Source: Trinickia soli
GTDB lineage: Bacteria > Pseudomonadota > Gammaproteobacteria > Burkholderiales > Burkholderiaceae
Reading direction: 5' to 3'
Assembly (NCBI RefSeq): GCF_002879855.1
Contig: NZ_PNYB01000035.1
Span: 1 to 51,710, forward strand
Length of the DNA: 51,710 nucleotides
The position numbers were made by a program, and so were the translations under genes. The notes below the pieces were generated by a model. The model made no database searches, had not been told where the DNA came from, and worked only from the letters and a program-made list of their open reading frames with translations. Below are positions 4,673 through 49,258 of this stretch, piece after piece (positions within the stretch are counted from its first letter, which is position 1; the number at the start of each line of letters is the position of its first letter).

Positions 4673-7600
4673 AGATCAACCGCTCGACGCGGCTGCCGCC
4701 GAGTCGGGCGCGCGCGCACGCGCGGCGCGACGTCGAGCCCGCGGCGCGCTCTCGGACGATCCGCTCTGGTACAAAGACGCGATCATCTATCAGGTCCATG
4801 TGAAGTCGTTCTTCGATGCGAACAACGACGGCGTAGGCGACTTCGCGGGTTTGATCGCCAAGCTCGATTACATCGCCGAACTGGGCGTCAATACGATCTG
4901 GCTGCTGCCGTTCTACCCGTCGCCGCGCCGCGACGACGGCTACGACATCGCCGATTACCGCAACGTCCACCCCGATTACGGCACGCTCGCCGACGCGCGC
5001 CGCTTCATCCAAGGGGCGCACGCGCGCGGCATGCGCGTCGTCACGGAACTCGTCATCAACCACACGTCGGATCAACACCCGTGGTTCCAGCGTGCACGTC
5101 GCGCCAAACCGGGATCGAACCATCGCAACTATTACGTCTGGTCGGACACCGACAAGAAGTACGAAGGCACGCGCATCATCTTCATCGACACCGAGCCGTC
5201 GAACTGGACCCACGATCCCGTCGCGGGCGCCTACTACTGGCATCGTTTCTACTCGCATCAGCCCGATCTGAACTTCGACAATCCGGCCGTGATGCGCGAA
5301 GTGCTGCAGGTCATGCGCTTCTGGCTCGATATGGGAATCGACGGGCTGCGCCTCGACGCCGTGCCGTACCTCGTCGAACGCGAAGGCACGAGCAACGAGA
5401 ATCTGCCGGAAACGCACGCGGTTCTGAAGCGCATCCGCGCCACGATCGATGCCGAGTATCCGAACCGGATGCTGTTGGCCGAGGCCAACCAATGGCCCGA
5501 AGACGTGCAGGAATACTTCGGCCAGGAAGACGAATGCCATATGGCGTTTCACTTCCCGCTGATGCCGCGCATCTACATGGCCATCGCGAGCGAGGACCGC
5601 TTCCCGATCACCGACATCATGCGGCAGACGCCCGAGTTGCCGCCTTCGTGCCAATGGGCGATCTTTCTGCGCAACCATGACGAGCTCACGCTCGAGATGG
5701 TGACCGATTCCGAGCGCGACTATCTGTGGAACACCTACGCGAGCGACCGACGCGCGCGGCTGAACCTCGGCATACGCCGTCGGCTCGCGCCGCTGATGGA
5801 GCGCGATCGACGCCGCATCGAGCTCATCAATTCGCTGCTGCTTTCGATGCCGGGCACGCCCGTGATTTATTACGGCGACGAACTCGGCATGGGCGACAAC
5901 ATTCACCTGGGCGATCGCGACGGCGTGCGCACGCCGATGCAATGGTCGTCCGATCGCAACGGCGGGTTTTCGCGCGCAGACCCCGAGCAGCTGGTCCTGC
6001 CGCCCGTCATGGGGACGCTGTACGGTTTCGACGCCATCAACGTCGAAGCGCAAACGCGCGATCCGCATTCGTTGCTCAATTGGACGCGCCGCATGCTCGC
6101 CACGCGCCGGTCCAAGCACGCGTTCGGACGCGGGACGATCCGCTTCCTGCGTCCGTCCAATCGCAAGATCCTTGCGTACCTGCGCGAGATGGAAGGCGAA
6201 GCGCCGATTCTCTGCGTCGCGAACCTGTCGCGTGCGCCGCAAGCGGTTGAACTCGACTTGTCCGAATTCGCGGGCCGCGTGCCCGTGGAAATGACGGCCG
6301 ACTCCGTGTTCCCCGCCATCGGCCAGCTCACCTACCTGCTGACGTTCCCGCCCTACGGCTTTCTTTGGTTTCTGCTGTGCAACCGGGAGGACCGCCCGTC
6401 GTGGGCTCAGGCCAACTCCGAGCAGTTGCCCGAGTTCGTTACGCTCGTCATGCGCGCGGGACAAACGGGGCCGACGCCGGAAAACGTCCGCCTGCTCGAA
6501 TCGGAGGTGCTGCCTTCGTATCTGAGCCGTCGCCGTTGGTTCGCGTCGAAGGATCAGAAACTGCATAGCGTACGGCTCGCCGCATTGACGACGATCCCCG
6601 ATGCGGGTTTCGCCTTCACCGAAATCGAGGCCGATGTCGGCCGCCACACCGAGCGCTATGTGTTGCCGCTCGCGATCAGTTGGGGCGCCGATACGACCGT
6701 GCCCCTGTTCATGCAGCTCGCGCTGGCTCGCGTGCGTCGCGGCCGCAACATCGGCCACCTGACGGACGCCTTTGCGTTACCGCTGTTTGCGCACGGTGTA
6801 CTGCAGAAACTGCGCGAGCGCGCGGCGGTGCCGACCGTGCAGAAGAGCGAAATCCGCTTCCTGCCGACGGCGCGTTTCGGTGAGCTCGATGCGCTCGGCG
6901 ATGCGCCCGAGATCCGCTGGATCGCGGCGGAGCAAAGCAACAGTTCGCTCGTGATGGGCGAGCGCGCCGTGCTCAAACTGGTGCGTCGGTTGATCGGCGG
7001 CATTCACCCCGAAGCCGAAATGAGCCGCCATCTGACCGAGATCGGCTACGCCAATACTGCGCCGCTCTATGGCGAAGTGGTCCGCGTCGATCCGCAGGGC
7101 GTGCCGCATACGCTCGCGTTGCTCCAGGGGTTCATCGAGAACCAGGGCGATGCCTGGAATTGGGCGCTCGATTACCTGCGGCGGGTCATCGACGAGTTGG
7201 CGTTGAGGCCCGAAACCGAGGAAGTCGACACCGACATGATCGAGGGCTACCGCGCGCTGGCCGGCACGATCGGCCGTCGGTTGGGCGAGTTGCATGCCGC
7301 GCTGGCGGCGCCCTGCGATGATCCCGCGTTTGCTCCCGAGCAAGCCAGCGCGGCCGACGTGCGCAGCTGGATCGAGGGCGCCCGTTCGATGCTGGAGCAC
7401 GCGCTCGACGTGTTGGCCGCCGAGGCTGCCAAGGAAGGCACCTCGATCGACGAGGACACGCGTGCGCTCGCCCAAGCGTTGATCGGCCGGCGCGCTGCGC
7501 TCGTCGAAGCGCTCGAACGGCATGTGCCGCACGACATCGACGCACTGCGTACCCGAGTGCATGGCGATTTCCATCTGGGCCAGGTGCTGATCGCGCAAAA

Positions 7601-48388: not shown

Positions 48389-48913
48389 TTACGCTACCAA
48401 GGCAGTCAATTGCCGATTAACACCCGGTTCGAGTTCACGAGCCCCCTTCGCCAAATTGACTTGCTTCGTCGATTTGGCCACGTCAATGAGCGCGAGATTA
48501 ATGGGATAACCCCCGCGGGCCATGAGCCAGAGCAACACGTCGGACAAGTGCCAAACCGAAGGGTTGCCCTCATGGACCGGCAACGGAAACTGCGACGCAT
48601 GAGCGAGCATCAACTTGCGCATGTTCTGTCGCGTGACGCCCGCGGCATCTGCGACGTCCGTCAGCCCGACGAAATCGGGGCCGGCCTCCACGAGGCGTGC
48701 CAATGGAATGGCTTGCTTGACATCCCTGAGGGCCGAGTAGATGGCCGCCCAGGCGTCAGCGCCTTCGCGCCGGAAAGCAAGGGCGATGCGGCCCGGCTGG
48801 CCGATGCCGATCGTGGCGTCGTCGCAGCCTGCCTCAAAAAGGCGTTCGACAATGCGCTCGTGATCCGAATCGTCGTCCGCCAGCTGGTATTTAAGCGTGA
48901 ATGCGTACTCCAT
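48389..48913 (-). CDS. HTH protein, putative antitoxin of a HicA-like pair
   Basis: The 174-residue protein starts MEYAFTLKYQLADDDSDHE. Residues 1-75 look like a small alpha/beta domain (IVERLFEAGCDDATIGIG, GRIALAFRRE). Residues 82-135 hold a winged-helix motif (GLTDVADAAGVTRQNMRKLML, then PVHEGNPSVWHLSDVLLWL) of the AlpA/MerR kind. AGGAG five bases before the ATG is a strong ribosome site. It is eight bases after the 94-residue gene and would share its promoter. I recall similar uncharacterised proteins in other proteobacteria. The antitoxin role is inferred from layout: small basic protein first, DNA-binding partner second, palindrome over the promoter. Confidence 0.75.
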   Translation of the reverse strand: MEYAFTLKYQLADDDSDHERIVERLFEAGCDDATIGIGQPGRIALAFRREGADAWAAIYSALRDVKQAIPLARLVEAGPDFVGLTDVADAAGVTRQNMRKLMLAHASQFPLPVHEGNPSVWHLSDVLLWLMARGGYPINLALIDVAKSTKQVNLAKGARELEPGVNRQLTALVA

Positions 48914-48921
48914 TCGTACTC

Positions 48922-49206
48922 CTAAGTTTTTGATGACTTGCTGCGTGCCGAGCCACCGATCCATTGCGCAATAGCACAGTGATCGACGACCCGCTTCAAA
49001 GCCTTGGCATGGTTCACGGAGCAACGCGGCGTGCTCCAGATGCTGGTGATGCAAAATTCTCCACAGCGACAATCGGCATCGTTGTACGGACACAGCATCC
49101 TGCCCCACGCATGCCCGTTTCCCTTCTTCGGCTCGACGCGCCAGCCTTGAGCCTCGGCATACGCGAGCGCCGCCTCGATTTCCTTCTTCGGATGTGGTCT
49201 TTGCAT
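48922..49206 (-). CDS. Small Cys-rich HicA-like protein, putative toxin
   Basis: The 94-residue basic protein has an N-terminal helix (PKKEIEAALAYAEAQGW), then RVEPKKGNGHAWGRMLCP and a C-terminal helix (NHAKALKRVVDHC). The order helix, GW-V, Gly-His-containing strand, helix resembles HicA mRNA interferases, whose conserved His sits in a similar place (here His32). Unlike ordinary HicA it has a Cys cluster, C39-x6-C46-x-C48-x3-C52, which could bind metal. It is the first gene of a two-gene unit. The -10 box lies 14 bases before the ATG, so the mRNA leader would be very short. The toxin function is a hypothesis. Confidence 0.65.
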   Translation of the reverse strand: MQRPHPKKEIEAALAYAEAQGWRVEPKKGNGHAWGRMLCPYNDADCRCGEFCITSIWSTPRCSVNHAKALKRVVDHCAIAQWIGGSARSKSSKT

Positions 49207-49220
49207 TCGTCAATGCGGCA

Positions 49221-49258
49221 AGAATACCGCCCTGTAAATGGGTTGTCAACTGACAACC
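49221..49258 (-). promoter_or_regulatory. Near-consensus promoter with overlapping palindromic operator
   Basis: On the minus strand a perfect TTGACA (49249-49244) is followed by 17 bases and TATTCT (49226-49221). The -35 box is embedded in the inverted repeat GGTTGTCA-AC-TGACAACC (49241-49258; 8-base arms, 2-base spacer). Transcription would start a few bases before the ATG of the HicA-like gene. A palindrome on the -35 is the arrangement expected for repression by the partner HTH protein. Confidence 0.7.

Follow-up and report, generated by a model that had tools for sequence, protein, structure and literature searches.

A 51,710-nucleotide stretch of the Trinickia soli genome (contig NZ_PNYB01000035.1 of assembly GCF_002879855.1; hereafter, the window) carries two adjacent genes, called A and B here, that probably form a toxin-antitoxin-type module. 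The combination is an unusual one: A encodes a HicA-like putative toxin, and B encodes a putative antitoxin in which a ferredoxin-like domain is predicted to precede an AlpA-like helix-turn-helix. An earlier note, made from the window alone, had inferred a toxin-antitoxin-like or defense-related pair. The genetics of the family are indeed toxin-antitoxin-like, while a link to defense is only possible.

A constant pair that decays from one side

How regularly do the two genes occur together? A scan of a genome collection returned at least 539 relatives; only the best 80 were kept, and these loci therefore lean toward near kin. In all 80, A is followed immediately by a B on the same strand, at least 165 residues long. 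The check on co-occurrence across genomes that the earlier note had proposed thus comes out in favor of a pair, the genes being far from rarely adjacent. The distribution itself is patchy. With the source genome included in both counts, A is present in 12 of 61 genomes in a set of relatives and in 23 of 398 genomes of the phylum. Plasmid records holding a relative number 211, chiefly from Escherichia and Enterobacter, and 198 of them are typed as non-mobilizable. We read many of these plasmid copies as SSU5-like phage-plasmids, from their SSU5 and Cyrano matches and their usual size near 95 to 120 kb. On the Salipiger profundus plasmid pTPRO5, a relative of the pair belongs to a cluster of toxin-antitoxin genes, with Xre-RES and ParDE pairs for neighbors, next to the relaxase gene.

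When the pair is damaged, it is A that goes. Full-length copies of B number 25 in the 398 phylum genomes, spread over 24 of them; 21 have an open A next to them and 4 a broken one. All 23 genomes with a match to A also carry a full-length B. The broken cases (genomes and loci are labeled G and L) comprise a stop codon in A (G141), an interrupted A (G317), an A that has apparently decayed (G201), and a second copy in G250 in which the inside of A is deleted and the operator and a full-length B are kept. The window's own genus tells a similar story: in G009, the inside of A is gone, but the operator, the opening codons of A, and an intact B remain; G005 has the operator and B with no A; and G002 has only remnants of B, on contigs 15 and 46, one of them beside gltA. 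The pair adjoins gltA in six genomes of this genus, among them G009 with its broken A. In G008, the pair lies elsewhere, and the site is empty, since the matched parts of gltA and of an acetyltransferase gene are 236 bases apart. The decay in G201, like the deletions in G009 and G250, was read from frames and sequence, without a statistical test. Left out of the counts were partial matches to B in G431 and G312, weak matches elsewhere to the helix-turn-helix only, the remnants in G002, and a truncated B in L093, a Cupriavidus contig on which this second B (1797-2138) lies far from the main pair.

B has been kept with A broken or gone in six cases (L159, L160, L184, L185, L189, and L221). The reverse, an intact A without B, was seen in none of the 80 loci, the 398 phylum genomes, or the genomes of the genus. 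One-sided decay is the pattern expected of a toxin and its antitoxin, although a B with a separate use of its own would predict it equally. It agrees with the type II trait that a toxin is not found without its antitoxin, whereas the antitoxin may survive alone. Both genes also look to be under purifying selection, with ratios of nonsynonymous to synonymous polymorphism of 0.10 to 0.23 (A over five genomes of the genus, B over six).

An operator that matches its putative reader

The consensus operator GGTTGTCANTTGACAACC lies upstream of A in 79 of the 80 loci, 75 of them at 12 or more of the 16 arm positions and 4 more found beyond misplaced gene starts. The single locus without it, L122, has an upstream stretch that partly reads N. 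In the window, the right arm of the operator carries the -35 hexamer TTGACA. With up to one mismatch allowed, the window has a single TTGTCANNTGACAA, where dinucleotide shuffles predict 0.02, and GTTGTCANTTGACAAC has one exact occurrence in the 6.1-Mb genome, at the pair's own promoter; one further site, on contig 11, matches the operator with two mismatches. The promoter is equally regular: of the 75 relatives scored, 72 have an exact TTGACA, and 62 score best with a 17-base spacer (lengths of 15 to 19 were tried, with ties given to 17). The operator-promoter claimed in the earlier note is thereby seen to be conserved, the DNA-binding part of the partner being a prediction.

There is also a second class of operator, GTTGAC-N4-GTYAAC, in which TTGACA lies in the left arm instead. 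Across 119 distinct pairs, class I sites accompany 91 helix-turn-helix motifs of the RQxxRK type and 2 near variants, and class II sites accompany 17 motifs of other types, with no RQxxRK; no site was found for the remaining 9 pairs. Operator class and helix-turn-helix class of B are strongly associated (Fisher P of 4e-18, for classes defined post hoc and uncorrected for ancestry). Such covariation of a site and its reader would follow if B recognizes the operator of its own pair, and B may regulate the pair through this site at the promoter.

Translation signals in the window favor B, whose ribosome site is strong (-6.8 kcal/mol to the anti-Shine-Dalgarno sequence), as had been noted earlier; that of A is nearly nonexistent (-0.4). 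In the 75 relatives, A and B have similar medians (-6.4 and -6.9, respectively), with B the stronger in 51. The leader of A has a median length of 5 bases in these relatives, assuming a start 7 bases past the -10 element.

How might such a module work? We infer toxicity, an RNA target, binding between A and B, DNA binding, a trigger, and a purpose along the following lines. The target of A is probably RNA, which it would bind and cleave, or block in some other way, by means of its invariant residue H32. B would be the antidote: it would bind A through its N-terminal ferredoxin-like domain and would silence the shared promoter by placing its AlpA-like helix-turn-helix on the palindrome that covers the -35 element. 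The strong ribosome site of B, the near lack of one for A, and a predicted leader of a few bases would leave B in excess in the window. Should B be titrated or lost, A would act. The module would favor the retention of islands and phage-plasmids and may also act as an abortive-infection defense.

The proteins and their layout

The predicted structure of A is alpha-beta-beta-beta-alpha, the order of elements found in HicA. Ten residues are invariant in 23 diverse relatives: H5, A17, G21, H32, G35, T59, P60, H66, A67, and C77. H32, which is also invariant in 80 sequences, follows a Gly or Ser, often as GGSH, and lies in a GNGHAWG strand in the window. G-(S/N)-H is the motif of the catalytic histidine of HicA, and A has this motif, which suggests that H32 is its catalytic residue. 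Does this make A a HicA? The HicA-like fold claimed in the earlier note is weakly supported: the element order is right and a profile match is weak but non-random, while the structural Z score is low. Neither the window A nor any of 23 family members matches HicA_toxin (PF07927) at E values up to 1. A sequence search of the PDB with A gave only weak stretches of thioredoxin reductase (best E value, 0.062). Foldseek with the model of A found no match at an E value of 0.001 or better in the PDB or in a viral library, with HicA absent among the 50 PDB matches listed. Homology to HicA is suggestive and unproven. The source genome holds a separate HicA_toxin domain match, above the Pfam cutoff at 35.2 bits, on contig 13 (69397-69555).

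The cysteine cluster to which the earlier note drew attention (C39-x6-C46-x-C48-x3-C52) is present in the window, but it is not a distinguishing trait. C39 is kept in 22 of the 23 relatives, C46 in 17, C48 in 14, and C52 in 20, and all four are kept together in only 14, which rules the cluster out as a family-defining metal site.

The model of B is a confident one, with an overall predicted local distance difference test score of 93.8. Residues 1 to 80 form a beta-alpha-beta-beta-alpha-beta unit that, by structure comparison of the model, resembles ferredoxin-like domains such as ACT and HMA; a helix-turn-helix and further helices follow. Foldseek with this model returned no PDB match at an E value of 0.001 or better. 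By sequence, B matches AlpA in the PDB (8c3t; E value, 0.028), and the AlpA family of Pfam is matched weakly by B in 7 of 23 relatives, not by the window B itself. B also matches PHROG 2620, "excisionase and transcriptional regulator" (E value, 7e-16). HicB, the partner of HicA, has a partial RNase H fold, and B has a ferredoxin-like N-terminal domain instead. B is thus, as modeled, a ferredoxin-like domain plus an AlpA-like helix-turn-helix, and the contention that the partner differs from a short HicB is borne out.

The two genes are 8 bases apart. The unit, its promoter, and its 8+8 palindrome were all found in the window sequence at the positions first assigned to them (Table 1). On one side lies gltA, named from its translation, and on the other lies the acetyltransferase gene. 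Base composition lends no support to the idea that the pair is recent foreign DNA, its GC fraction of 0.59 equaling that of gltA and the acetyltransferase gene.

Table 1. Features of the A-B module in the window
Feature	Position	Strand	Remarks
Gene A	48922..49206	minus	94 residues; putative HicA-like toxin; PADLOC PDC-M06A, E value 3.4e-41
Gene B	48389..48913	minus	174 residues; putative antitoxin and autorepressor; PADLOC PDC-M06B, E value 2.4e-76
B residues ~1-80	48674..48913	minus	Predicted ferredoxin-like domain; occurs alone on three viral contigs
B residues ~83-135	48509..48667	minus	AlpA-like helix-turn-helix
A stop codon and 8-base gap to B	48914..48924	minus	Stop, 48924-48922; B Shine-Dalgarno AGGAG, 48923-48919, overlaps stop
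Operator GGTTGTCA-GT-TGACAACC	49241..49258	minus	8+8 palindrome; precedes A in 79/80 loci
Promoter	49221..49249	minus	TTGACA, 49249-49244; 17-base spacer; TATTCT, 49226-49221

Integrase islands and free-standing domains

What lies next to the pair in other loci? A tyrosine integrase of one family, identified by Pfam in one case, is encoded just upstream on the same strand in 22 of the 80 loci, although the matches in L121 and L138 are only partial. Of these 22, 19 have the GMP synthase gene guaA ahead of the integrase; in two of the remaining three, the available upstream sequence is only 1.6 kb, and the third, L100, lacks guaA over 6.5 kb. The integrase-linked loci are islands that have guaA as their insertion site. 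In the other 58 loci, 4 of which have less than 1.4 kb upstream, the stretch examined showed no integrase of that family; other families were not sought.

Proteins encoded downstream of the pair (87, from 17 of the 22 loci) include matches to QatA, QatC, QatD, and LmuA (3 each) and to HamB, PD-Lambda-3_B, and SngC (2 each), these being raw counts, without control loci, among the matches listed (25 of 135 families). TrbI (3) and CagX (2) represent conjugation. When 10 of the 87 were scanned again, QatA was recovered in L126, L117, and L127 and QatD in L126 and L127, and L132 yielded a CBASS-like E1-E2/JAB protein; no defense model was matched by 4 of the 10 (in L118, L120, L121, and L138). Matches to PifA and PDC-S20 were rejected as QatA proteins matched twice, which was shown for L126, L117, and L127. 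These three guaA islands share a similar layout of integrase, pair, and then Qat-type defense genes.

Viruses carry B as well. The 25 viral loci with B include 17 with A upstream, 3 with B at a contig edge, 2 with a weak remnant of A and a shortened B, and 3 (L054, L055, and L057) with the N-terminal domain alone. These free domains are 73 to 90 residues long, match PDC-M06B, and have no A in the 12 kb examined around them on longer contigs. In L057, the domain overlaps by ATGA an Acb2/Tad1 hairpin gene (5783-6228; PF24729; E value, 1.8e-19), which in turn adjoins a gene for a single-strand binding protein. One speculation, which we hold only tentatively and think rather improbable, is that B is an antitoxin in two parts, that its ferredoxin-like half suffices to neutralize A, and that phages stole this half, in L057 in translational coupling with that anti-CBASS-type hairpin gene, as an antidote to an abortive-infection system located at the integrase edge of defense-bearing islands. 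Three contigs are thin evidence for it, and the free domains may have arisen by truncation; a search for more of them returned the same three contigs, SSU5, Cyrano, and one contig with the whole pair.

Known systems and competing explanations

The earlier note took the module to be undescribed, which it is not. A matches PADLOC models of PDC-M06A over residues 2 to 81, and B matches the PDC-M06B model over residues 1 to 173; with the genes adjacent, the window pair represents PDC-M06, a phage defense candidate. A relative pair in the record of Escherichia phage Cyrano is annotated as HicA toxin and putative antitoxin HicB. Pfam and NCBIfam match neither A nor B, and a literature search, in which preprints were absent and subscription papers few, found "PDC-M06" in no paper. 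The PADLOC library gives names only. New in this analysis are the pairing and decay genetics, the operator, the folds, the integrase context, and the free viral domain; the catalog name is what was already known.

In HicAB (PF07927), the toxin gene comes first and that of a DNA-binding antitoxin second, the toxin is a small alpha-beta-beta-beta-alpha protein with a Gly/Ser-His, and the promoter bears a palindrome. The window pair shares gene order, the predicted element order in A, the Gly/Ser-His, and the promoter palindrome. It differs in that A has no Pfam match and has further invariant residues (H5, H66, and C77) and, more clearly, in its partner. Since both the HicA domain and the HicB fold were looked for and not found, the pair is not claimed to be a HicAB. 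From AlpA and phage excisionases, which B resembles in its helix-turn-helix and in having an integrase next door in the 22 loci, it is set apart by an additional N-terminal domain, an operator of its own, and A as a constant partner.

Could the pair be mainly an abortive-infection system, with the same toxin-antitoxin chemistry selected because phage infection releases A? This is possible, if on the unlikely side. Both genes are a PADLOC candidate, models of Qat, Hachiman, PD-Lambda-3, Lamassu, and Shango are matched downstream in the integrase-linked loci, with Qat genes and the CBASS-like protein recovered on rescanning, and one free-standing viral domain overlaps the Acb2/Tad1 hairpin gene. 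However, the neighbor counts have no enrichment control, 4 of the 10 rescanned neighbors matched no defense model, no paper found names PDC-M06, genomes of the window's genus have the pair next to gltA as well, and free-standing domains occur on just three contigs. Two other PDC candidates, PDC-M63AB and PDC-S04, gave no defense in one native host, according to excerpts of PMC12409345.

An unlikely explanation is a pair that controls island excision, with B in the role of an AlpA-type excisionase or integrase regulator and A as an accessory, like alpA and shi of ICEclc. The matches of B to PHROG 2620 and, weakly, to AlpA fit this, as does the upstream integrase in 22 loci (two partial). Excerpts of PMC6812849 describe Shi as a diverged HicA-like protein on an integrative element, likened to A here by description, that arrests growth together with ParA and is harmless to growth alone, whereas A is paired with B. 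Against an excision role stand the 58 loci in which that integrase family was not found, the position beside gltA in six genomes, and the fact that the genome's one exact operator is at the pair's own promoter. A metabolic or stress-response regulator pair, with an ACT-like ligand-binding domain on B and zinc bound by A, is very improbable: the B domain does resemble ACT, among other ferredoxin-like domains, and A of the window's subgroup does have four close cysteines, but the full set of cysteines is confined to 14 of 23 relatives, the spread (23 of 398 genomes, with plasmid and phage copies) is patchy, and no metabolic neighbor common to most of the 80 loci was seen. The toxin-antitoxin-type module remains the preferred explanation.

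Overall, the analysis supplies a testable mechanism for a widespread candidate defense system that so far bears only a catalog name in the literature searched. To the HicA-type toxins it adds a likely member whose antitoxin is of another kind, and it points to a possible phage-borne antidote that is half of that antitoxin.
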